In this document: positions 31,402 through 44,986 of the stretch, piece after piece
Numbering within the stretch: position 1 is the stretch's first letter
How the letters are laid out: the number at the start of each line of letters is the position of its first letter
Assembly (NCBI GenBank): GCA_913030825.1
Contig: CAJWCU010000012.1
Span: forward strand, 1 to 64,000
Source of the DNA: an uncultured Rhodospirillaceae bacterium
Lineage (GTDB): Bacteria > Pseudomonadota > Alphaproteobacteria > Rhodospirillales > Casp-alpha2
Direction of reading: 5' to 3'
Length of the DNA: 64,000 bases
Made by a program: the position numbers and the translations under genes
Notes under the pieces: generated by a model
What the model was told of the DNA's origin: nothing
The model's database searches: none
The model's input: only the letters and a program-made list of their open reading frames with translations

Positions 31402-31989
31402 ATGTCGGCCGTTGGCCTGAAGATTCTGGTGATTGACGAAAGTGACGAACGCGCCCAGGTGCTGCTCGCAGGCCTGGAGGACGCGGGGTATCACCACGTC
31501 CAATACCTGCGCGATATGTCCGATCTGGTGCCGCGCATCGCGGCGATCGATCCGGACGTGATCCTGATCGACCTGGAAAACCCCAACCGCGACACCATCG
31601 AGCAGATGTTCCGCGTTTCGCGCGAGGTCAAACGCCCGATCGCCATGTTCGTCGACGAAAGCGATCCGGAAACCACCAAGTCGGCGATCCGCGCCGGGGT
31701 TAGCGCCTATATCATCGACGGCCTGCGCCGCGACCGTATTCAGCCGGTGGTCGACGTCGCGATTTCGCGGTTCGAATCCTACCGCGAGTTGGAACAGCGG
31801 GCGACGGACGCCGAACTGCAACTGGCCGAACGCAAAACCATCGAACGGGCCAAGGCTCTGTTGATGGAAAAACGCGCAATGACCGAACCGGACGCCTACG
31901 AAGCGATCCGCCATATGGCGCGGGCCAAGGGCAAGCGCATGGTCGAGGTCGCGGAAAGCCTGCTGACCGCCCAGGCGCTGGGTATCTAG
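31402..31989 (+). CDS. ANTAR response regulator 1 (NasT/AmiR-like, intact receiver)
   Basis: A 195-aa regulator with an N-terminal receiver domain and a C-terminal ANTAR RNA-binding domain (about 135-193; KTIERAKALLMEKRAMTEPDAYEAI begins KTIERAKALLMEKR). The acidic pair (Asp12, Glu13) and phospho-acceptor Asp57 in VILIDLENP are present. The AYIIDGL segment matches NasT proteins, which prevent transcription termination at nitrate-assimilation leaders. GGAGTGGGAAG precedes the ATG. It lies after a 182-bp gap from the hydrolase gene and convergent with the DUF3500 gene. No partner sensor (NasS) is adjacent. Confidence 0.9.
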   Translation: MSAVGLKILVIDESDERAQVLLAGLEDAGYHHVQYLRDMSDLVPRIAAIDPDVILIDLENPNRDTIEQMFRVSREVKRPIAMFVDESDPETTKSAIRAGVSAYIIDGLRRDRIQPVVDVAISRFESYRELEQRATDAELQLAERKTIERAKALLMEKRAMTEPDAYEAIRHMARAKGKRMVEVAESLLTAQALGI

Positions 31990-33741: not shown

Positions 33742-33756
33742 TGGCACGGCCTTTGC
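33742..33756 (+). promoter_or_regulatory. σ54 (-24/-12) promoter for ANTAR 2 / cyanate operon
   Basis: TGGCAC, five bases, TTGC. This matches the RpoN consensus exactly in both elements and spacing. Transcription should start near 33767, 175 bp before the ANTAR 2 start. σ54 promoters need an activator such as NtrC, which fits nitrogen control. Confidence 0.88.
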
Positions 33757-33768
33757 GATTGTCATAGC

Positions 33769-33790
33769 GCCGGGCGACCTGCCGCCCGGC
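33769..33790 (+). other. Stem-loop at the 5' end of the ANTAR 2 transcript
   Basis: A perfect 8-bp stem (GCCGGGCG / CGCCCGGC) around a 6-base loop ACCTGC, beginning within a few bases of the predicted σ54 start. ANTAR proteins bind hairpins with 6-base loops; this loop has the conserved A at position 1 but not the G at position 4. Confidence 0.5.
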
Positions 33791-33911
33791 ATCCTTCGCG
33801 TCCAATGGCGGGCGGAACATCGAAGGCCATTTGCCCCATGACGGGCTGGAATGCCGGCATGTGCCGGGATTGGTAGCTAACACCGCCGACGTATGGCGGC
33901 CATGGTTTGGG

Positions 33912-33927
33912 CCCGGTTTCGGGTTTT
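33912..33927 (+). terminator. Weak attenuator-like hairpin before ANTAR 2
   Basis: CCCG-GTTT-CGGG followed by TTTT, placed immediately before the AAGGGG ribosome-binding site of ANTAR 2. The stem is only four GC pairs, so it is a candidate, not a firm terminator. Confidence 0.4.
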
Positions 33928-33943
33928 AAGGGGCGACAACCAC

Positions 33944-34549
33944 ATGCAAATTCGTTTGATGACGCCTGTCGGTACCAGCGTTCTCGTCGTGGAACGGGAT
34001 GCATCGCGCGCCGAGGCGACCAAACGTCTGCTCGTCGAACAGGGCTATACGGTGACCGGTCTGCTGACCGACCTGGACGCCTTCGGCGAAACCGCCGCCA
34101 AAACCACCGCCGACTGCATCATGATTTACGCGACCGAGCCGGACCGCGCGTTGCTCGACCAGTTGCGCGCCCTGCCGACGGAACAGCGCCGGCCGACGAT
34201 CCTGATTACCGAGAACGGCTCGACCGACGCCATCCACGCCGCCGTCGCCGCCGGGGTCAATGCCTGCGTCGTCGTCGGCGTCAACGGCAACCGCATCCGG
34301 TCCGCCATCGATCTGGCGAAAGCGAATTTCTCCAATACCGCCGGCCTGCGCGAGGAACTGGACGAGGCGCGCAACGCATTGCGCGACCGTAAGGTCATCG
34401 AGCGGGCCAAGGGCATCATTATGCGTGAACGCGGCCTCGATGAAGAGGCCGCCTATACCATGCTGCGGACCCGCGCCATGCAGCGCGGCGTGCGCCTGGT
34501 CGCCGTCGCCGAGATGGTGGTCGAGGCGGCGGAGGTCATGCAGCTATAG
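33944..34549 (+). CDS. ANTAR regulator 2 (degenerate receiver)
   Basis: A 201-aa protein with a receiver-like N-terminal domain and a C-terminal ANTAR domain (about 140-200; RKVIERAKGIIMRERGLDEE). The receiver lacks its phospho-acceptor: the segment aligning with VILIDLENP of ANTAR 1 reads CIMIYATEP, so Asp is replaced by Tyr62. Regulation by phosphorylation is therefore unlikely, and ligand or protein binding is more plausible. The ATG at 33944 follows AAGGGG. It is the first gene after a σ54 promoter and lies directly upstream of the cyanate transporter, separated by a structured 224-bp leader. It probably controls that leader by antitermination (inference). Confidence 0.88.
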   Translation: MQIRLMTPVGTSVLVVERDASRAEATKRLLVEQGYTVTGLLTDLDAFGETAAKTTADCIMIYATEPDRALLDQLRALPTEQRRPTILITENGSTDAIHAAVAAGVNACVVVGVNGNRIRSAIDLAKANFSNTAGLREELDEARNALRDRKVIERAKGIIMRERGLDEEAAYTMLRTRAMQRGVRLVAVAEMVVEAAEVMQL

Positions 34550-34631
34550 AATTTCGCCGCCCGGGCGCCTGGATCACGGCGACGGCGGCAGCACAGTTTG
34601 GCGGGCGGACGATGACGCCCGATCCGCCGAA

Positions 34632-34666
34632 GAACCGGGCCGGGCGACGACGGGGTCGTCGGGTTC
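34632..34666 (+). other. Leader stem-loop
   Basis: CGACGAC-GGG-GTCGTCG forms a perfect 7-bp inner stem, and GAACC/GGTTC extends it outside an unpaired segment. It is the strongest structure in the cynA leader. Confidence 0.55.
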
Positions 34667-34707
34667 ATACAGGGGGACGATGACGGCCCCCGAAAAAGGA
34701 CCACGAC

Positions 34708-34755
34708 GTCCATCGACGGGACCGCGAAGAGCGGCCGCCGCGTTGGGCGTTTTTT
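34708..34755 (+). terminator. Candidate attenuator before cynA
   Basis: Two short hairpins come first: GTCC...GGAC around an ATCGAC-containing loop (34708-34722), and CCGC-GAAGA-GCGG (34722-34734). Then CGCC-GCGTTG-GGCG (34736-34749) is followed by six T. The ATCGAC loop has A at position 1 and G at position 4, as in known ANTAR targets. The T-run is six bases before CAGGAG, the cynA ribosome site. Confidence 0.45.
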
Positions 34756-34773
34756 ATTATCAGGAGTAAATCA

Positions 34774-36393
34774 ATGGGAGCCTTTGCAAACCCGTTTGAT
34801 CCCGACAAGCTCTTGTGGAACGGCTGTCCCTGCGGGCAGCACCGATCCATCATCGAGCACAATATGGCCATGGCCGCGGCGCAGGGTAAGGATGCGTCCC
34901 GGTTCCAGTGCGAAGACGTAGACGCGGCGGAAGCCACGTCCGCCGAAGGCACCGGCCACAGCCCCGCCAATTGCTTCGATCCGTCCTGCCAGGAAGCCGC
35001 TTGCGTTTCCATGCGTCAGGCCGCCGAAGCCAACGGCCAGGGCGACATGGTGCGCGCCGCGCAGAAGCATCAGCAGGAAATGGCCGATCTGGAAGCGGAG
35101 CCCGAGGCTTCGGATCTGGAAAGCACCATGTCCCGCGCCGTTGAATCGGCCGTCATGAAGGGAATGTTCGGGGGCGACATGCATCGCCGTTCGTTCCTGA
35201 AAGCGGTCGGCGCCGGTACGGCCTATGCGGCCATTGCCTCCATGTTCCCTCTCGAAGAAGCCAAAGCCATGGCGGTCGAGATGGCCATGAAGGGTGGGCC
35301 GCTCGAGAAGTCCAAGCTGAACGTCGGTTTCGTGCCCATCACCTGTGCGACGCCGATCATCATGGCCCATCCGATGGGTTTTTATAAGAAGTACGGCCTG
35401 GACGTTTCCGTGATCAAGACGGCCGGTTGGGCCGTGTCCCGCGACAAATCGCTTTCCGGCGAATACGACGCGGCGCACATGCTCACGCCGATGCCGCTCG
35501 CGATCTCCATGGGTGCCGGTTCGACCAAGGTGCCCTGGACCATGCCGGCGGTGGAGAACATCAACGGTCAGGCCATCGTGCTGTCGAAGAAGCACATGGA
35601 CAAGAACGATCCGAAGATGTGGAAAGGCTTCAAGTTCGCAGTGCCTTTCGAATACTCCATGCACAACTTCCTGCTGCGCTACTACGTGGCCGAACACGGG
35701 CTGGATCCCGACAAGGACATCCAGATCCGCGTCCTGCCGCCGCCAGAAATGGTCGCCAACCTGCGGGCGGACAACGTCGACGGCTACCTGTCGCCGGATC
35801 CGTTCAACCAGCGGGCGGTCTATGACGGCGTCGGCTTCATCCACAAGCTGACGAAGGACATCTGGGAAAAGCATCCCTGCTGCGCCTTCGCCGCCTCGCA
35901 GGGCTTCATCGACGAAAACCCCAACACCTTCATGGCGTTGTGGAAGTCGATCCTGGACGCCACCGACTTTGCGTCGGTCAAGTCCAACCGCAAGGAGATC
36001 TCCAAGGCGATCTCGCCGAAGAACTACCTGAACCAGCCGGTCACGGTTCTGGAACAGGTGCTCGTCGGCACCTACGCGGATGGTCTGGGCAACGTCAAGA
36101 AGGTCCCGGACCGGATCGATTTCGATCCGTTCCCGTGGCATTCCATGGCGGTCTGGATCCTGACCCAGATGAAGCGCTGGGGCTACGTCAAGGGCGACGT
36201 CGACTACAAGAAGGTCGCCGAAGACGTTTATCTCGCGACAGACGCGCAGAAGCTGATGTCCGAGATGGCCCTGACCGGTCCCTACGGCACCCCGCCGAAG
36301 GAGACCTACGAGAACTACACGATCATGGGCAAGACGTTCGATCCGGCCAAGCCGGAAGACTACGTCGAGTCCTTCGCCATCAAGAGAACGTAA
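34774..36393 (+). CDS. cynA: Cyanate/nitrate-type ABC transporter substrate-binding protein with N-terminal Cys-rich domain
   Basis: A 539-aa protein. The C-terminal about 380 residues are a NrtA/CmpA/CynA-family binding protein (LNVGFVPITCATPIIMAHP start; FPWHSMAVWILTQMKRWGY typical). Unusually, a Tat signal with RRSFLK (138-143) lies about 135 residues in. Before it is a charged domain with Cys18, Cys20, Cys46, Cys67, Cys72 and Cys77 (GCPCGQH and CFDPSCQEAAC), suited to metal or Fe-S binding. Met136 has GGGGG six bases upstream and could be a second start giving a normal secreted form. The neighbouring permease, ATPase and cyanase make cyanate the likely ligand; nitrate or bicarbonate is possible. 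Confidence 0.85.
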   Translation: MGAFANPFDPDKLLWNGCPCGQHRSIIEHNMAMAAAQGKDASRFQCEDVDAAEATSAEGTGHSPANCFDPSCQEAACVSMRQAAEANGQGDMVRAAQKHQQEMADLEAEPEASDLESTMSRAVESAVMKGMFGGDMHRRSFLKAVGAGTAYAAIASMFPLEEAKAMAVEMAMKGGPLEKSKLNVGFVPITCATPIIMAHPMGFYKKYGLDVSVIKTAGWAVSRDKSLSGEYDAAHMLTPMPLAISMGAGSTKVPWTMPAVENINGQAIVLSKKHMDKNDPKMWKGFKFAVPFEYSMHNFLLRYYVAEHGLDPDKDIQIRVLPPPEMVANLRADNVDGYLSPDPFNQRAVYDGVGFIHKLTKDIWEKHPCCAFAASQGFIDENPNTFMALWKSILDATDFASVKSNRKEISKAISPKNYLNQPVTVLEQVLVGTYADGLGNVKKVPDRIDFDPFPWHSMAVWILTQMKRWGYVKGDVDYKKVAEDVYLATDAQKLMSEMALTGPYGTPPKETYENYTIMGKTFDPAKPEDYVESFAIKRT

Positions 36394-36402
36394 GAGGGAA
36401 CC

Positions 36403-37245
36403 ATGAAGTCCATGTCGCTTAAAACCCGCTCCATCGTGCTGTCGATCGCGTTGTTGTTCGCGTTCGCCGGTCTTTGGCAACTGATGCTGCCGGAAGGGAC
36501 GGGCTCTGCCGCGAACATGGACCCCGCTTACGCCGCCTTGATGGGGGCGACTGCCAAGGGGGCCTCGGCGATGCCGGGGCCCCTCGAGGTCGCCAAGCAG
36601 ATCTGGGAACACGTCCTAAACCCGTTCTATGACGCCGGCCCCAACGACAAGGGCATCGGCATCCAGTTGGGGTATTCGATCCTGCGTGTCCTGGTCGGCT
36701 TTTCCTTCGCCATTATCGTCGCCATTCCGCTCGGCTTCCTGATCGGCATGTCGCCGCTTTTCTATCGCGCCCTCGACCCGTTCATCCAGATTCTGAAGCC
36801 GGTTTCGCCGCTCGCCTGGATGCCGCTGGCGCTTTACACGATCAAGGATTCGATCATCTCGTCCGTGTTCGTGATCTTCATCTGTTCGGTCTGGCCGATG
36901 CTGACCAACACGGCCTTCGGCGTCGCCAGCGTGCGCAAGGAATGGCTCAACGTCGCCAAGACGCTTGAGGTCGGCCACCTGCGCACCGCCTTCCGCGTGA
37001 TCCTGCCGGCGGCGGCCCCCACGATCATGACCGGCATGAGGATTTCCATCGGCATCGCTTGGCTGGTCATCGTCGCCGCCGAGATGCTCGTCGGCGGCAC
37101 GGGCATCGGCTACTTCGTGTGGAACGAATGGAACAACCTGTCGATCACCAACGTGATCGCCTCGATCTTCTTCATCGGACTGATCGGAATGGTGTTGGAC
37201 ATGATCCTGTCCGCCCTGACCCGTTTCGTCACCTACGCAGAATAA
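36403..37245 (+). CDS. cynB: Cyanate/nitrate-type ABC transporter permease
   Basis: A 280-aa inner-membrane permease of the NrtB/SsuC family with about six helices. The EAA loop is visible as KTLEVGHLRTAFRVILPAA, followed by PTIMTGMRISIGIAWLVIV, both typical. A first helix (about 10-30) and a 50-residue periplasmic loop precede the core. GAGGGAA precedes the ATG, nine bases after the cynA stop. It partners the binding protein upstream and the ATPase downstream. Confidence 0.9.
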   Translation: MKSMSLKTRSIVLSIALLFAFAGLWQLMLPEGTGSAANMDPAYAALMGATAKGASAMPGPLEVAKQIWEHVLNPFYDAGPNDKGIGIQLGYSILRVLVGFSFAIIVAIPLGFLIGMSPLFYRALDPFIQILKPVSPLAWMPLALYTIKDSIISSVFVIFICSVWPMLTNTAFGVASVRKEWLNVAKTLEVGHLRTAFRVILPAAAPTIMTGMRISIGIAWLVIVAAEMLVGGTGIGYFVWNEWNNLSITNVIASIFFIGLIGMVLDMILSALTRFVTYAE

Positions 37246-37268
37246 AAGAAAGAACGGAGCCCCGAAAG

Positions 37269-38195
37269 ATGAGCGCGAACACAGCCGCCACCAGCCAGCC
37301 CCGTATCCGCGTCGAAGGCCTGGCGCAGCGTTTCCCCGCCCCGGACGGCAACGGCGAGACCACCGTCTTCGAAGACATCTGGTTCTCCGTGGAGCCGGGT
37401 GAGTTCGTCTGCCTGATCGGTCATTCCGGCTGCGGCAAGACGACATTGCTGAACATCCTGGCGGGCCTGGCCACGGCCAGCGCCGGCAACGTCATCGTTT
37501 CCGGCCAGGAAGTCACCGGCACGTCCCTCGACCGCGCCGTGGTGTTCCAGAGCCACGCCCTGATGCCCTGGATGACCGTGATGGGCAACATCGCCTTCGC
37601 CGTGTCGTCGAAATGGCCGCGCATGGCGAAAAAGGACCTTCACGCCCATTGCCAGAAGTTCATCGACCTGGTCCACCTGACCGGATCGGAAAACAAGAAG
37701 CCGTCGCAGCTTTCCGGCGGCATGAAACAGCGCGTCGGCATCGCCCGCGCCATGGCGATCGAACCGCAGATCATGTTGCTGGATGAGCCGTTCTCGGCGC
37801 TCGACGCGCTGACCCGCGGCTCGCTGCAGGACGAACTTCTGAGCATCTGCGCCGAGACGGAACAGACCGTCTTCATGATCACCCACGACATCGACGAGGC
37901 CATTCTGCTGGCCGACAAGATCATCCTGATGACGAACGGGCCCGATGCGCGCATCTGCGAGATCGTCGAGAACACGCTGCCGCGCGAACGGACGCGCAAC
38001 AACATGCATACCCAAGCCAACTACTACCCCGTCCGCAACCACCTGATCGAATTCCTGGTCAACCGCTCGGTCGGGTTCAAGGACGAATTGGCGTCCCCCG
38101 ATTACGACCCCAGACATCCGCCGGTCGTCGGCCCCACCGTGGTCACCGACGAAGCCGGCGAGACCGGCACGGGCGTCCTGCGCGCCCAGGCCTGA
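37269..38195 (+). CDS. cynD: Cyanate/nitrate-type ABC transporter ATPase
   Basis: A 308-aa ABC ATPase of the NrtD/SsuB/TauB group. Walker A GHSGCGKTT, Q-loop VVFQSHALMPWMT, signature LSGGMKQRVGIARA, Walker B IMLLDEPFSALDA and the switch His in FMITHDIDEA are intact. The C-terminal 50 residues beyond the ABC core (including PDYDPRHPPVVGPT) are an extension with no recognised domain. The ATG at 37269 is 23 bases after the permease stop. It powers uptake by CynA/CynB. Confidence 0.92.
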   Translation: MSANTAATSQPRIRVEGLAQRFPAPDGNGETTVFEDIWFSVEPGEFVCLIGHSGCGKTTLLNILAGLATASAGNVIVSGQEVTGTSLDRAVVFQSHALMPWMTVMGNIAFAVSSKWPRMAKKDLHAHCQKFIDLVHLTGSENKKPSQLSGGMKQRVGIARAMAIEPQIMLLDEPFSALDALTRGSLQDELLSICAETEQTVFMITHDIDEAILLADKIILMTNGPDARICEIVENTLPRERTRNNMHTQANYYPVRNHLIEFLVNRSVGFKDELASPDYDPRHPPVVGPTVVTDEAGETGTGVLRAQA

Positions 38196-38236
38196 ACCGA
38201 CAATCCGCATACGTCATCAACGAAGGAGACACTTAC

Positions 38237-38686
38237 ATGACCCGTGCAGAATTGACTGAGAAGATCCTGGCCCACAAGGTCCTGACCGGCTTTACGTGGT
38301 CCGACGTCGCCGAAAAAGTCGGCAAATCCAAGGAGTGGACGGCCTGCGCCTGCATGGGGCAGTTGTCTCTGTCGAAGGAACAGGCCGAGGCCGCCGGCAA
38401 CGCGATGGGGCTGAACTTCTCCGACGACGAGATGGCGCTCCTGATGTCGGTGCCCTATCGCGGCTCGCTGGACACGCAGATCCCGACCGATCCGCTGATC
38501 TACCGGTTCTACGAAATCACCCAGGTGTTCGGCATGTCGATCAAGTCGCTGATCGAGGAAGAATTCGGCGACGGGATCATGTCGGCCATCGACTTCGACA
38601 TGCAGATCGAACGCATTCCCGATCCCAAGGGCGACCGTTGCCAGGTCACCCTGAGTGGCAAGTTCCTGCCCTACAAATCCTATTAA
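38237..38686 (+). CDS. cynS: Cyanate hydratase (cyanase)
   Basis: A 149-aa decameric enzyme that converts cyanate and bicarbonate to carbamate and CO2, with carbamate then giving ammonia. The N-terminal helix-turn-helix-like domain is followed by the catalytic domain YRFYEITQVFGMSIKSLI and FGDGIMSAIDF, which carry the catalytic Arg, Glu and Ser equivalent to R96, E99 and S122 of the E. coli enzyme. AAGGAGA precedes the ATG. Its place right after the ABC transporter identifies the imported substrate as cyanate and the purpose as nitrogen supply and detoxification. Confidence 0.96.
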   Translation: MTRAELTEKILAHKVLTGFTWSDVAEKVGKSKEWTACACMGQLSLSKEQAEAAGNAMGLNFSDDEMALLMSVPYRGSLDTQIPTDPLIYRFYEITQVFGMSIKSLIEEEFGDGIMSAIDFDMQIERIPDPKGDRCQVTLSGKFLPYKSY

Positions 38687-38761
38687 GGACCAACCTTCCG
38701 GATGACCATCAAAGGCGGTGGCCCGGTAATCAAACTCATTGAGACAGAGAGGTATCTTCAA

Positions 38762-39430
38762 ATGAACGCTCGCAAACTCACCAAGTTGGTTCCCGCGCTG
38801 GCCGTCGGCGCCGTTGCCGTCGCCGCCGCCGAACCGGCGCTCGCCCACCATCCGCTCGGGGGGGCTCCGATGGAAACCTTCGCCCACGGCGTGCTGTCCG
38901 GCATCGGCCACCCGCTGCTGGGCTTTGATCACCTGTTCTTCGTGCTGGCCGTCGGCCTGGCCGCGCTCTACACCGGCCACCGCTTCACCGCCCCGGCCGC
39001 CTATATCGTCGCCATGCTGGCGGGTTGCCTGATGATGAGCCTGGGCGTCGGCCTGCCGGCCAAGGAAATCGTCATCGGTCTGTCGCTTCTGGCCCTGGGT
39101 GCGGTCGTGTTGTCCGGCCGGGCCATGAGCATCCTGCCCGCCGTCATCGTCTTCGCCGCCTTCGGTATGTTCCACGGCTCTGCTTTCGGTGACTCGATGG
39201 CCGCTCAGGAAGCGGGCTTCGGTGCGCCGGTTCTGGTCGGCTACCTGCTGGGCCTGGGCGTTCTGCAGTACGCCATCGCCGTCGCCGCCGGCACGGTCGC
39301 CCTGAAGCTGTGGAAGGCCACGGAATCGACGGCCATGGAAACCCGTCTGGCGGGTGCCGTGGTCGCCGGTGTCGGCATGTTCCTGACGCTGGAAAACCTG
39401 GAAGGCATCGTTCTCGGCGCCATTCTGTAA
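38762..39430 (+). CDS. HupE/UreJ-family metal permease
   Basis: A 222-aa membrane protein with a cleavable-looking N-terminal segment ([20 protein letters not shown]) followed directly by HHPLGG, then about six or seven helices. [13 protein letters not shown] and [10 protein letters not shown] carry the conserved Asp-His and His residues of HupE/UreJ proteins, which import nickel or cobalt. GAGAGG precedes the ATG at 38762. Cyanase itself needs no metal, so its presence here with the CobW-type protein points to another metal-dependent step of the pathway. Confidence 0.88.
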
Positions 39431-39579
39431 TACCCGGGCCGAACGGCCCCCACGCCGGGGTGCGGCGTGCCGGGACAACGCGCCGCCCCCGACATAACCT
39501 ACCGGTTTTGGTCCCACACACTGACGATGCGGTCCGCCCAAGGGTGGGTGGACCGCCAACTCAAGGGAGAGTAATCACC

Positions 39580-40548
39580 ATGGAAGCGGCAAAGGTGCCC
39601 GTCACGCTGATCACCGGATATCTGGGTGCTGGCAAGACCACATTGCTCAACCGTATCCTCACCGAACAGCACGGCAAGAAGTACGCCGTCATCGTCAACG
39701 AATTCGGCGAGGAAGGCATCGACAACGAATTGGTCGTCGACGCCGACGAAGAGATTTTCGAGATGAACAACGGCTGCATCTGCTGCACCGTGCGCGGCGA
39801 TCTGATCCGCATCATCTCCACCCTCATGAAACGCGCCGACGCCTTCGACGGCATGATTATCGAGACCACGGGCCTGGCCGATCCGGCGCCGGTGGTGCAG
39901 ACCTTCTTCGTGGACGAGGACGTCCAGGCGAAGGTTTCGCTCGACGCCGTCGTCACGGTGGTCGACGCCTGTCATTTCTTGGACGCCGTCGACGAGGAAC
40001 ACGAACTGGCCGAACAGGTCGCCTTCGCCGACATCATCCTTCTTAACAAGACTGACCTGGTCGACGCCGACAAGCTCAACGCGGTGAAGGCCAAGATCAC
40101 CGGCCTGAACAAGATGGCGAAAATAATTGAGACGGTGAACAGCGGGGCCCCCATCGAGGAAGTCCTCGACCGCGGTGCGTTCGACCTTTCGCGGGTTCTC
40201 GAGTTCGAGCCGGGACTTCTTGATGAAGAAGACGACCACGAACACGACGAAGACATCATCTCGGTCAGCCTGACGACCGATACGCCGATCGAACCCGAAA
40301 AGTTCTCCAACTGGATCCGTGGATTCATTATGGAACGCGGCGTCGATGTGTTGCGGACCAAGGGCATCCTGAACCTTTCCGGTCAGGACAACCGATACGT
40401 CTTCCAGGGTGTTCACATGGTCATGGACAGTGCCTGGGGCGCGCCCTGGGACAGCGCCAGCCGGTCGTCGCGCCTGGTCTTCATCGGCCGTAACCTGGAC
40501 GAGACCGAACTGAACTCGGCCTTCCAGGCCTGCACGGTCGCGGCCTGA
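39580..40548 (+). CDS. CobW/COG0523-type G3E GTPase (metal chaperone)
   Basis: A 322-aa P-loop GTPase. Walker [10 protein letters not shown], the metal-binding GCICC motif (Cys-Ile-Cys-Cys, about 64-68), VDACHF and the NKTD base-specificity motif are all present. An acidic-His stretch ([10 protein letters not shown], about 213-222) could bind metal. The C-terminal CobW_C domain is present. Such proteins deliver zinc, cobalt or other metals to enzymes. AAGGGAGAG precedes the ATG. It is followed six bases on by the WD40 gene. Confidence 0.93.
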
Positions 40549-40559
40549 GGGAGATGAGC

Positions 40560-41675
40560 ATGACAGCAGACGCCTTGATCAATCCCCAGGCCGGCGGCGT
40601 GCCGGGCTTTAACCCGGACGCCGGCGCGCGCTTGGTGTCCCCGGCGGTGGGTCTTTCCGAAACGCCGGCGGTTGGGGCCCATCCGACCTTCGTCGTCATC
40701 GAACCGGGCCAGGCCCGGGCCGTCATCGGCTTCGGCGACAAGCGCCTGCGCGGCCTGTCCCTTGCTTTGGACGGCGCGCAGCCGCAAGTCGTCGCCGATG
40801 TGGACGCGACGCCTATTGCGGGGGTGGCGGATATCGGCGGCAAGGGGGTGCTGATCGGTACGGACGGCGGGACGCTGCTACGTCTCGACGGATCGGACGT
40901 GACGACCCTGGCATCGACCGACGGTGCCTGGATCGGCCAGATCGCCGTGCATACGGACAAGTCGGGCGAGGCGGGCTTGCGTGCCTTCGCCGCCGGAAAG
41001 TCGATGACCGTTCTGGACGGCGAAGGATCGGTGGTGCTGACCTCCGACGATCATCCGTCGACCGTCGCGGGACTGTCGTTTTCGCCGGATGGAACCAAGA
41101 TCGCCGCGGCTCATTATGACGGCGTGACCGTCTATACCCTGACCGATGCCAAGCAGAAGCCCGTTCGCCTGGACTGGCACGGCTCTCACACCGCCGTCGC
41201 CTGGTCGCCCAACGGTAAGTTCATCGTCACCGCCATGCAGGATAAGGAAATGCATTGCTGGCGGTGGAAGGATAAGACCGGCATGCGGATGTCGGGCTAT
41301 CCGTCGAAGATCCGGGCCCTGACCTGGACCGCCGATGGCGGCTACGTCGCGGCTTCGGGCGCGGATACGGTCACGTCCTGGGATTGTTCGGGCAAGGGGC
41401 CGTCGGGCAAGCCCCCGTTGGAATTCGGCTATGTCTATAACGGCATTGTCATGCAGGTTGCGGCCCATCCGACGGACGGGGTCGTCGCCGGCGGTTATTC
41501 CGACGGTACGGTGATGATCGGGACCGTCGAACAGGAAACCGCGATGATCGCTCGCCCGTCCAGCGGTAGTGCCATTTCCGGCCTCGCCTGGACCGCCGAC
41601 GGCACGACCTTGGTCGCCGCCGACGAACAGGGCGCCATTGCCGTGATGCGCATGAAGGAAGCCTTGGTCTCGTAA
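40560..41675 (+). CDS. WD40-repeat β-propeller protein
   Basis: A 371-aa soluble protein made of WD40-like repeats, best seen as SFSPDGTKIAAAHYDGVTVY, AWSPNGKFIVTAMQDKEM and AWTADGTTLVAADEQGAI; about seven blades fit the length. No signal peptide, so it acts in the cytoplasm, probably as a docking platform. It starts 11 bases after the CobW-type gene. Two ATGs lie close together; 40560 is placed better after GAGGGAG than 40554. Pairing of this family with CobW-type GTPases suggests a shared complex (inference). Confidence 0.82.
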   Translation: MTADALINPQAGGVPGFNPDAGARLVSPAVGLSETPAVGAHPTFVVIEPGQARAVIGFGDKRLRGLSLALDGAQPQVVADVDATPIAGVADIGGKGVLIGTDGGTLLRLDGSDVTTLASTDGAWIGQIAVHTDKSGEAGLRAFAAGKSMTVLDGEGSVVLTSDDHPSTVAGLSFSPDGTKIAAAHYDGVTVYTLTDAKQKPVRLDWHGSHTAVAWSPNGKFIVTAMQDKEMHCWRWKDKTGMRMSGYPSKIRALTWTADGGYVAASGADTVTSWDCSGKGPSGKPPLEFGYVYNGIVMQVAAHPTDGVVAGGYSDGTVMIGTVEQETAMIARPSSGSAISGLAWTADGTTLVAADEQGAIAVMRMKEALVS

Positions 41676-41735
41676 GCCGGTGGCCGGCTGGGTGGGCCGG
41701 CCCCGCGCCACGGGACGCGAACGGGAGAGACGACG

Positions 41736-42011
41736 ATGGACGATATTCTCGGATTGTCACGGGCCAAGCCGGACGGCAGCGCCGCGCGGATCAAGGACAT
41801 GATGCGCGAACGGTTGGGCATCGGCGAGGAGACGACTCTTATGGTCTCCGAACTGCATTGCCACGAAGACGGCTGCCCGGATGTGGAAACGGTGATCGCC
41901 GTGATGAACGCCGATCGGGACAAGATGACCTGGAAGATCGCCAAGCCGATGACCGAGGTCGGCGAAGGCGATATCCAAAGCCTGATGATCCCCCAAGCCG
42001 CCGGGGCGTGA
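41736..42011 (+). CDS. Small Cys/His protein linked to the CobW-type gene (91 aa)
   Basis: A 91-aa acidic protein with a central motif ELHCHEDGCPDVETVIAVM, holding two Cys and two His in nine residues, a likely metal site. The rest is small and charged, and it ends ALIPQ-like (MIPQAAGA). GGGAGAGACG precedes the ATG. I recall similar short proteins beside CobW-type GTPases but cannot name a function. A metal-transfer partner is an inference. It is the last plus-strand gene of the operon. Confidence 0.72.
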   Translation: MDDILGLSRAKPDGSAARIKDMMRERLGIGEETTLMVSELHCHEDGCPDVETVIAVMNADRDKMTWKIAKPMTEVGEGDIQSLMIPQAAGA

Positions 42012-42146
42012 ACGGCGCGGCTTTTCTTTCCTGACGTCAACTGATCACGACGCGGTCCGGTGATTTGCCGCGACGGCATCGCTATTTGTGGGGCGCATCC
42101 CCTTCGGCGGCGCGCGGCGGCATGTCGGTCTACGGGAAAAAGGGGA

Positions 42147-42200
42147 GGAAGGCGGCAGGTCCCGAGGAGAGTGGCTGTCGATAACGACCCGCCGCCTTCC
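42147..42200. other. Stem-loop after the cyanate operon
   Basis: GGAAGGCGGC pairs perfectly with GCCGCCTTCC across a 34-base loop. It lies between the convergent 91-aa gene and ANTAR 3. No T-run follows. Confidence 0.45.
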
Positions 42201-42230
42201 CTAAGTCCGTCTTGGGAGGAGAGGACTTAG
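42201..42230. terminator. Second stem-loop after the cyanate operon
   Basis: CTAAGTCC and GGACTTAG form a perfect 8-bp stem around a 14-base loop, directly after the previous hairpin. Together they occupy the 280-bp convergent gap and may end both operons. Confidence 0.4.
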
Positions 42231-42291
42231 TGTTCGTTGAAATTTTTCGCCGGGCCGCCTGCGGTGGCCGGGCCGGGGGTGGTCCGTGGCG

Positions 42292-42882
42292 TCACCCCTT
42301 GCAGAGAACGAGGCTCTCCGTGTCGATGATCTGTTCGGCGACGACCCGCATGGGCTGCGAGCGTTTCATCGCCAGCTTGCGAATCTCGTGATAGGCCGTG
42401 TCTTCCTCAAGCCCCTTGAGCTTCATGACGATGCCCTTGGCGCGTTCGATAGTGATGCGGTCGGCCAGTTTGTCTTCCTTTTCCTTCAGGCGCGTTTTCA
42501 ATTCGCGCATGGCAAGGAATTGGGTTCGGGTCCATTCGGCGAGGCTCGGGAACGCCTGCAGGCCCGCCGTCACCGGCAGATAGGCGACGACACCGGCGCG
42601 TGATGCCTGTGTCATCATTTCCGGCCGTTCGTCGTCGGCCAGGAACATCACGGGTAAAGGCGCCGTCTCGTTCAGGCTCTGCAACTCGGTGAAGGGGAAT
42701 TCGTTGGGGTCGGCGACATGCACCACGATCATGTCGGGCGCGGCCTCGCGGGCCTTGTCGACCATCTCACCGTTCGGCGCGCAGAAGGAAACCACCTCAT
42801 GCATCCCGCCGTTGGTGCCCGCTGCGTGGGCCTGAAAGGCCTCAACCGCGTTCGGGATATCCGTTATCAGCATCACACGCAT
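42292..42882 (-). CDS. ANTAR regulator 3 (degenerate receiver)
   Basis: A 196-aa protein with a receiver-like N-terminal domain and a C-terminal ANTAR domain (about 138-190; RITIERAKGIVMKLKGLEED). The position of the phospho-aspartate reads MIVVHVADP, so it is replaced by His55, and the acidic pair is reduced to one Asp (Asp8). Control by phosphorylation is unlikely. A coiled-coil linker (about 115-140; LKTRLKEKEDKLADR) suits dimerisation. It has its own perfect σ54 promoter about 90 bp upstream, and is convergent to the cyanate operon and divergent from a sensor kinase. Confidence 0.88.
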   Translation of the reverse strand: MRVMLITDIPNAVEAFQAHAAGTNGGMHEVVSFCAPNGEMVDKAREAAPDMIVVHVADPNEFPFTELQSLNETAPLPVMFLADDERPEMMTQASRAGVVAYLPVTAGLQAFPSLAEWTRTQFLAMRELKTRLKEKEDKLADRITIERAKGIVMKLKGLEEDTAYHEIRKLAMKRSQPMRVVAEQIIDTESLVLCKG

Positions 42883-43279
42883 CGTCGTTTTCTTGGTTGC
42901 CTCTGTATGTTGTTGTTTGTGTCAGGGCTGGGCGGGTCTTTAAGCCCGCACTTCGCAAATGCAAAAAGCAAGTCCTGTGCCAACCCGCCTTTGCGATAAA
43001 TTCTCATTTATGTCCAATAGATTAGCTGCATTTATGCACATGCATGCGATGCAGCAAATACGCAAAAAATGACCAAAAAACAGGCTAAATTTTAGTATTG
43101 ATAAAAATTTGTGCATTGAGTGACGTTGGGAATGCCCGGGGCGGTGCTCGAAAATGGTGCATCCGCCTTTCGGGTATGCCACCACCGGCTGTCGGCCTGG
43201 CGGGGCCGGACGCGCCGGTGCAACCTGCACTTTCGGTATGCTTAATAATCTATCCCCGTTCGGTTAGGCTGGTGTCCTG
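42883..43279. promoter_or_regulatory. Divergent control region, ANTAR 3 / sensor kinase (397 bp, no gene)
   Basis: The stretch 42990-43120 is strongly AT-rich and contains TGCATTTATGCAC, ATGCATGCGATGCAG and, on the minus strand, TGCACAAATTTTTATC. The TGCACAAA word followed by an A/T tract also occurs upstream of the other σ54 promoter (33620), so it may be a shared activator site. Confidence 0.5.
42968..42982 (-). promoter_or_regulatory. σ54 (-24/-12) promoter for ANTAR 3
   Basis: On the minus strand TGGCAC, five bases, TTGC, followed by T: a full match to the RpoN consensus. Transcription should start near 42957, about 75 bp before ANTAR 3. Confidence 0.88.
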
Positions 43280-44986
43280 ATGATCGCGGAATTCGCCAAA
43301 GCGGCGTCGTTGTTGCTTTCCCTCTGCTTGCTCTATGCATTCATCGCGCAACGATGGCCATACGAGGAACTGACCGGCCGTATCTTGGCCGGTCTGCTGT
43401 TCGGCGTGATCTGCGTGATCGGCATGGAATCTCCGGTCACCGTGGCGCCCGGCGTCATCTTCGATCCCCGATCGGTCATTATCAGCCTGTCCGGCGTCTT
43501 CGGCGGGCCCATCGCCGGGGTCGTCGCCGGATTGATCGCGGCCGGATACCGATTGTACCTGGGCGGCGGCGGCGCCCCTGTCGGTGTCGCCGTGGTCGTG
43601 GCCTGCGTCGCCCTGGGCCTTGCTTATCGCATGGCTTGCCGGTCCGGCCGGGTTCCCCTGAATTGGGCCACTTTATTGGCATTCGGGTTGGTCGTGCACC
43701 TAGTGGTGATCGCGCTCTTCGCGCAGCTACCCGCCCCCGTGGCGGAAAAGGTGATGCGGACGATCGCCCTGCCTTTCGTCATTACCTTTACGCCGGCGAC
43801 CATGGTGCTGGGCATGATCCTGGCCTATGTGGACGACCGCATCGAAACCCGCGAGGCCCTGGCCGTAAGTCAGGCGCGGCTGCAGGCAGTCATCGACAAT
43901 ACGCCCAACGGCATGACGCTCAAGGATCCGGATGGCCGGATCCTTCTGGTCAATCCGACGTTCGCCGACTGGGTCGGCGCCAGCCCCGACGCCCTGGTCG
44001 GCAAGACCATCTGGGACATCTTTCCCGCAGCCGATGCCCGCGAGGTGGCGGAGAAGGAACGCGCGGTCATGGACAGCGGCAAGCTGGACATCAGCGAAGC
44101 CACGCGGACTTTCCCGAAGGCCGGGATCAAGGTTCTCCGAAACCACAAGATCCCCATCGTCGTCGGGGCGGGCCGGGACAAGGCGCTGCTGACCATCATC
44201 GTCGACATCACCGAGGAGAAATCGATCCAGCAGGACCTTCGCACCGCCCTGGGCCTTGCCGAGGAAGCGAACCAGGCCAAAACCCAATTCCTGGCGACCA
44301 TGAGCCATGAGTTGCGAACCCCGCTGAATGCGATCATCGGGTTCTCGGAAATCCTGCACCGCCAATATTTCGGTCCGCCCGGCCAGGGGAAATACCGGGA
44401 ATACGCCAAGGACATTCATTCCAGTGCGTCTTATTTGTTGTCCTTGGTCGAGGACCTTCTCGACATTTCGGCCATCGAAGCCGGTGGCGCGATGCATGAG
44501 CCGGCGATTGTGGCGGTCGGCGAGATCGCGGAAGATTGCGCCGATGCGGCCCGCGTTCGCGCTTATGAAAAAGACATCGAAATCGACGTGGTCCTGGCCG
44601 ATCCGTTGCCGCCCGCCTTTGCCGACGCGCGCGCGGTCAAGCAGGTATTCCTGAACCTGCTGGTCAATGCCATCAAGTTCACACCGTCTTCGGGGCAAAT
44701 CCACATCGCCGTCGAACAGGCCGGGGACATGATAGTGGCCTCGGTCGCCGATAACGGTCCCGGCATCCCGCCCGACTTGATCGACCGCCTTCTCGAGCCG
44801 TTCTCAAAGCGCACCAAAGATCCCTTCACCACGGAAAAGGGTTGGGGGCTGGGGCTGTCGATCTCGAAATCCCTGATCGAAATGCAGGGGGGGACGATCG
44901 GCATCGAAAGTGTCCCGGGTGCGGGAACGACCGTGACCTTCACGCTTCCCCTCGCGGGCCCCGCTCAGGTGGCGCAATCGGCCTAG
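43280..44986 (+). CDS. Membrane sensor histidine kinase (5TMR-LYT, PAS, HisKA, HATPase)
   Basis: A 568-aa kinase. The N-terminal about 185 residues form a 5TMR-LYT (LytS-type) sensor with ESPVTVAPGVIFDPRSVII and FGGPIAGVVAGLIAAGYR. A PAS domain follows (about 200-310; RLQAVIDNTPNGMTLKD), then HisKA with the phospho-acceptor in TMSHELRTPLNAIIGFSE, and a HATPase with NLLVNAIKFTP, VADNGPGIP and GWGLGLSISKSL. LytS-type domains usually sense small molecules or membrane state. No response regulator with an intact Asp is adjacent; ANTAR 3 lies divergent but cannot be phosphorylated in the usual way. Confidence 0.92.
   Translation: MIAEFAKAASLLLSLCLLYAFIAQRWPYEELTGRILAGLLFGVICVIGMESPVTVAPGVIFDPRSVIISLSGVFGGPIAGVVAGLIAAGYRLYLGGGGAPVGVAVVVACVALGLAYRMACRSGRVPLNWATLLAFGLVVHLVVIALFAQLPAPVAEKVMRTIALPFVITFTPATMVLGMILAYVDDRIETREALAVSQARLQAVIDNTPNGMTLKDPDGRILLVNPTFADWVGASPDALVGKTIWDIFPAADAREVAEKERAVMDSGKLDISEATRTFPKAGIKVLRNHKIPIVVGAGRDKALLTIIVDITEEKSIQQDLRTALGLAEEANQAKTQFLATMSHELRTPLNAIIGFSEILHRQYFGPPGQGKYREYAKDIHSSASYLLSLVEDLLDISAIEAGGAMHEPAIVAVGEIAEDCADAARVRAYEKDIEIDVVLADPLPPAFADARAVKQVFLNLLVNAIKFTPSSGQIHIAVEQAGDMIVASVADNGPGIPPDLIDRLLEPFSKRTKDPFTTEKGWGLGLSISKSLIEMQGGTIGIESVPGAGTTVTFTLPLAGPAQVAQSA

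Follow-up and report, generated by a model that had tools for sequence, protein, structure and literature searches.

Published ANTAR target sites are paired hairpins with six-base loops (hexaloops) that carry A at loop position 1 (A1) and G at position 4 (G4), the second hairpin lying within a terminator (described in excerpts of PMC3369931 and PMC8934654). The closest described systems that use an ANTAR protein are the NasS-NasT leaders of Paracoccus denitrificans nas and Bradyrhizobium diazoefficiens nos (excerpts of PMC3795266 and PMC6759348, with Azotobacter vinelandii nas entering via a reference), the EutV-governed eut leaders of Enterococcus faecalis (PDB 6WSH and 6WW6; same excerpts as for the target sites), and AmiC-AmiR of Pseudomonas aeruginosa, where the ANTAR protein is partnered by a sensor that binds small molecules and belongs to the same operon (excerpt of PMC3795266). 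Here we describe a cyanate uptake and cyanase (cyn) locus in a 64-kilobase (kb) stretch of DNA from an uncultured Rhodospirillaceae bacterium (GenBank assembly GCA_913030825.1, contig CAJWCU010000012.1, positions 1 to 64,000; hereafter, the window), in which the gene of an ANTAR protein, ANT2, stands directly ahead of a leader before cynA. From comparative sequence, we consider it probable that this locus is a self-contained transcription-attenuation switch for cyanate use, with a sigma-54 start and ANT2-licensed read-through into cynABDS and the genes that follow.

The likeness to the NasS-NasT leaders lies in the ANTAR protein, the leader hairpins, the interference with a terminator, and the link to nitrogen genes; the differences are the target (cyanate uptake and cyanase), an ANTAR gene placed between promoter and attenuator, the lack of an adjacent NasS gene except the homologous CynA, and a receiver without the phospho-acceptor Asp. 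With EutV, the locus shares the receiver-ANTAR layout, G4 hexaloops, and a last hairpin inside the terminator stem, whereas EutV is activated by phosphorylation and recognizes A1/G4 loops in a pair, while ANT2 lacks that Asp and the loops of the four leader hairpins in the window begin with G or C. Unlike AmiC-AmiR, no dedicated cytoplasmic sensor gene was found at the cyn locus.

Cyanate is both a nitrogen source and a toxic metabolite. No report of ANTAR control of cyanase was found in the open-access literature searched (PMC), and we regard the switch as a known mechanism that is predicted, with good support, to act on an apparently new target. It differs from leaders of other nitrogen genes in its target, in having its regulator within the operon, in lacking a separate sensor gene, and in the loop letters of the window. 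It would extend ANTAR leader control to cyanate, through a regulator whose gene is part of the very operon that it would gate. Sigma-54 control has been predicted for cyanate lyase and for ANTAR genes, given as separate items in an excerpt of PMC12316311.

Anatomy and covariation of the cynA leader

The leader between ANT2 and cynA (34550-34773, + strand) contains four tandem ANTAR-type hairpins with six-base loops, located at 34606-34621 (loop GATGAC), 34640-34663 (GACGGG), 34672-34691 (GATGAC), and 34698-34711 (CACGAC). They are followed by an intrinsic terminator at 34706-34755, made up of a stem (34706-34750, -25.1 kcal/mol) and the run TTTTTT (34750-34755), and then by a Shine-Dalgarno sequence at about 34761-34766 and the cynA start codon at 34774. 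The 3' arm of hairpin 4 falls within the 5' arm of the terminator and, because both use ACGTCC, the two structures are mutually exclusive. ANTAR-target RNA is characterized by at least two tandem hairpins of this kind, and the four present here are conserved and covarying. When both strands of the window were scanned, this was the single cluster of three RANGRN loops in 100 nucleotides. G4 is present in all four loops and invariant in both loops of 11 aligned segments, although the hairpin screens selected for G4 and are thus not an independent test of it. Structure prediction gave -27.0 kcal/mol for the terminator stretch (34698-34757; z -2.48, with 4 of 200 shuffles as good), and the energy of the hairpin stretch (34598-34711) was less remarkable (z -1.85, 9 of 200 shuffles as good). 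An Rfam scan of the whole window gave no family at its cut-off, and a simple terminator scan passed over the cyn terminator, which has an interrupted stem.

The paired regions are retained across relatives with changes on both sides of the stems. For hairpins 3-4 (or the last two hairpins) in 11 sequences, 92.4% of cells were paired compared to 74.3% in shuffles, six pairs had changed on both sides, and none of 500 shuffles matched the covariation score; as these segments were picked by eye as hairpins, the pairing figure is inflated and the covariation less so. This set (A4) leaves out the near-identical L036 and L037 as well as L041 and L045. Across all four hairpins in seven sequences, 96.7% of cells were paired, eight pairs had changed on both sides, and the covariation score was again reached by 0/500 shuffles; this set (A3) leaves out L036, L041, L045, L046, L059, L060, L062, and L063, and counts as is a first hairpin of L042 that the program misaligned. 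The outer stem of the terminator was paired in 49/49 cells, with two pairs changed on both sides and a covariation score matched by 0/500 shuffles. All three covariation scores were far above slid controls, with kinship among the sequences inflating the results.

The proposed switch would work as follows. Sigma-54 polymerase, probably through NtrC in nitrogen limitation, would start at about 33768 (placed from the -12 element of the promoter) and transcribe ANT2, after which the transcript would fold the four hexaloop hairpins and then the terminator, which takes up the 3' arm of hairpin 4. With ANT2 inactive, the terminator would win and mainly ANT2 would be made; active ANT2 would bind the hexaloops and hold hairpin 4, and the polymerase would read into cynABDS-hupE-cobW-WD40.

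Co-occurrence with ANT2 and the sigma-54 promoter

CynA searches provided 20 stretches from relatives and 80 named loci among the matches listed. Of the 20 relatives' stretches, nine have ANT2 immediately before cynA. Seven of the named loci have an upstream ANTAR gene, which adjoins cynA in six and is 2.35 kb away in Roseibium L060; three of the seven duplicate loci already counted (L055, L056, and L058), and the newly found ones are from Filomicrobium (L059), Roseibium (L060), Aliishimia (L062), and a Rhodobacteraceae metagenome-assembled genome (L063). Cyn operons generally have the same core genes (binding protein, permease, ATPase, and cyanase) in the same order, and 73 of the 80 named loci among the matches listed lack an ANTAR gene in the 3 kb upstream of cynA, which is how we define an unlinked locus.

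The hairpins follow this division. RANGRN hexaloop hairpins averaged 2.79 in the 14 linked leaders (0.12 when shuffled) and 0.175 in 80 other leaders (0.03 when shuffled), and the linked leaders held at least three hairpins in 11 cases, two in 2, and one in 1. As the narrow count used guessed start codons and could miss unlinked leaders, it was repeated over a wider range, from which L046 and L049 were dropped for their short upstream sequence; none of 79 unlinked loci then had at least three hairpins within 120 nucleotides, and two had two (L064 and L100). L046, counted among the 80 unlinked, has four hairpins on a contig that ends before any ANTAR gene is visible, and the single ANTAR gene of its genome lies at a contig end elsewhere. 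Among the unlinked loci, L082 and L122 show an ANTAR-like match at a distance of about 7 kb, the former downstream (24% identity) and the latter upstream (38%). The original prediction, made from the letters of this stretch, had described hairpins and a T-run near the ribosome site, proposed a sigma-54 start with ANTAR antitermination at the cynA leader, and named hairpin conservation among homologous cyn leaders as a test. Structure prediction of 34550-34773 bears out the first, comparative sequence supports the second well, and the hairpins proved to be kept and covarying, with the linked and unlinked counts just given.

The case for a promoter ahead of ANT2 is made by position and conservation. 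The pattern TGGCAC-N5-TTGC occurs exactly twice in 64 kb, as TGGCACGGCCTTTGC at 33742-33756 (+ strand, a -24/-12 site upstream of ANT2) and as TGGCACAGGACTTGC at 42968-42982 (- strand, upstream of a divergent ANTAR gene, ANT3), compared to a mean of 0.10 in shuffles of the window. A sigma-54 type site stands at this conserved position before the ANTAR gene in the window, L038, L039, L041, L045, and L059, and with its last base altered in L035-L037; it was not found in L040, L060, L062, or L063, and L042 is cut. In loci lacking ANT2, the site lies 61-177 bases before the aligned cynA start in 7 of 11 relatives' stretches, and 50-352 bases before it in 20 of the 73 named loci without an ANTAR gene (among the matches listed). 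The window genome has one RpoN and four strong sigma-54 activators, and no clear NtrC enhancer site was seen by eye, the only way in which these sites were looked at. In L059 and L060, a divergent PAS/sigma-54-activator gene adjoins the ANTAR gene or cynA.

These promoter positions bear on the view that the terminator is an ordinary one that ends a monocistronic ANT2 unit and that cynA has its own promoter. The terminator does end just ahead of the Shine-Dalgarno sequence, but neither a second sigma-54 site nor a listed sigma-70-type site lies between ANT2 and cynA, the hairpin array and its overlap with the terminator are conserved, and a sigma-54 site stands shortly before cynA in the 7 of 11 loci lacking ANT2 noted above. 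We consider such a monocistronic unit very improbable.

Leaders of similar plan also occur before other genes. A model of the last two hairpins (R1), searched in 385 genomes of the class and 297 of the order, matched nine cyn leaders (seven in the model itself and two near-identical) and 15 other places. Five of the 15 are same-plan leaders before four NMT1_2-family binding-protein genes (L151-L154) and nirB (L165), and the cyn leader thus has its design in common with leaders of other nitrogen genes; nine others fall inside long open frames and resemble chance matches, and L169, which sits close to a contig end, is ambiguous. In the window genome, there were 14 weaker other matches, and the five inspected (L136-L140) are all inside long open frames. 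An NMT1_2-family gene in a different genome of the class is preceded, at L152:1441-1656, by a sigma-54 type site (TGGCACGGGCTTTGC) together with hexaloop hairpins and a stretch that resembles a terminator.

The acting regulator and points that weigh against the switch

The window genome has four ANTAR genes: ANT1 (31402-31989, +), ANT2 (33944-34549, +), and ANT3 (42292-42882, -) in the window, and a NasT-like gene beside a NasS-like gene on contig C14. ANT2 has a clear ANTAR domain (PF03861, 68.1 bits against a cut-off of 27.3) behind a degenerate receiver (Response_reg, 25.9 bits, under the cut-off of 30.2), and aligns with PDB 1S8N over residues 11-195 and with 6WSH over 13-193. From the EutV alignment and the residues named in an excerpt of PMC8934654, we mapped the corresponding positions: ANT2 retains the residues matching EutV Lys143, Tyr164, Arg168, Met172, and Arg177, whereas Asn173 is replaced by Gln and Arg175 by Gly, and the presumed position 147 (EutV numbering) is Arg. 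ANT1 is a NasT paralogue (54% identical) that keeps the receiver Asp, has no NasS neighbour, carries Arg at the EutV Met172 position, and groups with NasT (97/100) in an 18-row tree; it is also upstream of ANT2 in five relatives' loci (L035-L039).

The NasT of contig C14, rather than ANT2, might act on the cynA leader, in which case the cyanate genes would follow nitrate. Its place next to a NasS-like gene and the similar leaders before NMT1_2-family and nirB genes elsewhere fit this idea, but several genomes do not. In G256 (96% complete, 8% contamination) and G025 (99% complete), which have cyn hairpins, the ANTAR search detected just the cyn-linked gene, which makes NasT dispensable there; in G060 (99% complete), only ANT2 and the adjacent ANT1 were detected, the latter with Arg at the Met172 position that is essential in EutV. 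In all three, the sole strong NasS homolog is CynA (other matches are weak, E 8.9e-5 or worse), and no nasT beside nasS was detected. Conversely, G101, G228, and G294, which have an ANTAR gene elsewhere and none beside cyn, show no array at cyn. Action by NasT is therefore quite improbable in our view, and ANT2 is the preferred regulator.

As for the signal, NasS and CynA are one family, the order ANT2-cynA mirrors nasT-nasS, and CynA is the only strong NasS homolog in the three genomes without a detected nasT-nasS pair; on these grounds, CynA might itself be the sensor. A cytoplasmic pool of CynA would hold ANT2 and cyanate binding would free it, with CynA doubling as transporter part and NasS-like switch. 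Twin-arginine translocation (Tat) substrates fold before export. We hold this role for CynA to be unlikely, and its N-terminal extension is no evidence for it.

Several points weigh against the attenuation switch under ANT2 control. The 14 linked loci include the window and four of them are from one genus. Genome-wide, the letters of the promoter pattern are not enriched (11 occurrences versus 17 for a reversed control) and thus prove little alone, so that position and conservation carry the promoter claim. In the terminator stem, two pairs are double-changed and four pair types occur, numbers that do not exceed those of shuffles (reached by 145 and 350 of 500, respectively). Chance matches to R1 score up to 37.5 bits, so scores below about 39 decide nothing alone, and at threshold the model missed the cyn leaders of G256 and G025. 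A1 is found in none of the four loops in the window (G, G, G, and C), position 1 being G or C in the cyn leader of this genus. Relatives do have A1, in three of four loops of L038 and of L039 and in all four of L042, and their loops such as AACGGC and AATGGC resemble the AANGR part of the eut 13-mer consensus AGCAANGRRGCUY (excerpt of PMC3369931). Because G4 is the only base contacted specifically in the EutV-RNA structure (excerpt of PMC8934654), a change of position 1 away from A may be tolerated, and its shift in one genus offers a natural test of which loop bases matter.

The T-run is a further point of this kind. Terminator and T-run stand before cynA in 8 of 14 folded leaders (the window, L035, L037-L040, L042, and L046), and a T-run directly before cynA is absent in the other six (L041, L045, L059, L060, L062, and L063, all relatives), which may for this reason use another step. 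These six leaders also fit the view that the hairpins act mainly on cynA translation or Rho and not on intrinsic termination, as does the translational ANTAR control reported in mycobacteria and proposed for actinobacteria in an excerpt of PMC8164766. In the window and its nearer relatives, however, hairpin 4 shares sequence with a strong terminator that has a T-run, and paired changes have preserved the terminator stem; we judge it quite unlikely that translation or Rho is the main target.

The remaining points concern the proteins. ANT2 has Tyr in place of the phospho-acceptor Asp, which is found in 0/11 aligned cyn-linked proteins (the window included), and no NasS-like sensor gene adjoins ANT2, the next gene encoding the Tat-type binding protein CynA; for both reasons, no known activating signal can be assigned to it. 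The ANTAR proteins of L059, L060, L062, and L063 have diverged (23-31% identity) and, because the Tyr164 and Arg168 positions are replaced, their RNA recognition may differ. Since the cyn-linked ANTAR proteins do not form a single supported clade in the 18-row tree, the linkage to cyn may have arisen more than once. The locus provides a testable alphaproteobacterial case of an ANTAR protein without phosphorylation site or obvious sensor gene, and a related arrangement, though with no T-run, is available in a named strain, Aliishimia ponticola MYP11 (L062).

Other features of the locus

A second hairpin pair is located in the 5' untranslated region of ANT2 (+ strand): CGTCC-AATGGC-GGGCG at 33799-33814 (A1, G4) and GCCC-CATGAC-GGGC at 33833-33846 (C1, G4). 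The pair recurs in L035-L039 with compensating stem changes (CGCCC/GGGCG, CGTCC/GGACG). The 14 letters of the CATGAC-loop hairpin are identical in five of six loci (the window and L035-L038), and in L039 its outer G-C pair is compensated to A-U. No terminator with T-run follows the pair, the fold of the region is unexceptional (z -1.33, 23 of 200 shuffles as good), and the model score is weak (13.5 bits, rank 4 in the stretch searched). As a lead, ANT2 may act on its own message.

The apparent operon on the + strand runs from 33742 to 42011, with a 224-base gap between ANT2 and cynA and 5 to 149 bases between the other neighbouring genes (we picked the start codons). After the gap, the order is cynA (34774-36393, NMT1_2 substrate-binding protein), cynB (36403-37245, NtrB-type permease of an ATP-binding cassette (ABC) transporter), cynD (37269-38195, NtrCD-type ABC ATPase), cynS (38237-38686, cyanase), and genes for a HupE/UreJ-type membrane protein (38702-39430), a CobW-type GTPase (39580-40548), a WD40 protein (40554-41675), and a 91-amino-acid protein without Pfam match (41736-42011) that recurs in the genus and in L038, L039, and L059. 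CynS was identified as cyanase by NCBIfam (201.9 bits) and by matches to PDB 1DW9 and others; the nearest solved structures to CynA are NrtA and CmpA, and calling the transporter a cyanate transporter follows its position beside cynS.

Much of the layout in the original prediction thus stands: both RpoN promoters (with letters that are weak alone genome-wide), the gene order (binding protein, permease, ATPase, cyanase, HupE, CobW, and WD40 were all confirmed), and both ANTAR genes it listed, ANT1 having been overlooked. The bracketing it proposed, with one ANTAR protein on either side of the operon as a functional unit, was not supported. ANT3 has Ile for EutV Lys143 and Pro for Arg177, and among the loci read it was seen next to cyn only in four loci of the window's genus; it was not found in L038, L040, L041, L042, or L045, where sequence was read more than 9 kb past the cynA start, and L039 is too short to tell. 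ANT3 was therefore rejected as a core co-regulator. Its gene and one for a 5TMR-LYT/PAS histidine kinase (43280-44986) point away from each other across a shared intergenic region that holds the second sigma-54 site.

CynA has a Cys-containing N-terminal extension followed by a Tat motif (residues 1-135, 34774-35180). The 22 CynA relatives compared also carry an N-terminal stretch of very roughly 55-170 amino acids (some starts are guesses) ahead of a Tat-like motif, and this stretch usually contains CPCG/CSCG-like or CxC cysteines. The extension was considered as an ANTAR-specific sensor domain and rejected, as it occurs with and without ANTAR linkage.

The CobW GTPase and WD40 genes (39580-41675) are near cyn in many loci, ANTAR-linked or not. 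In the two Rhodobacterales loci (L062 and L063), read to about 4 kb upstream of cynA, the ANTAR gene is preceded by OsmC-, acyl-CoA dehydrogenase-, rhodanese-, and DsbA-like genes (judged from translation only), with a second ABC transporter farther upstream.

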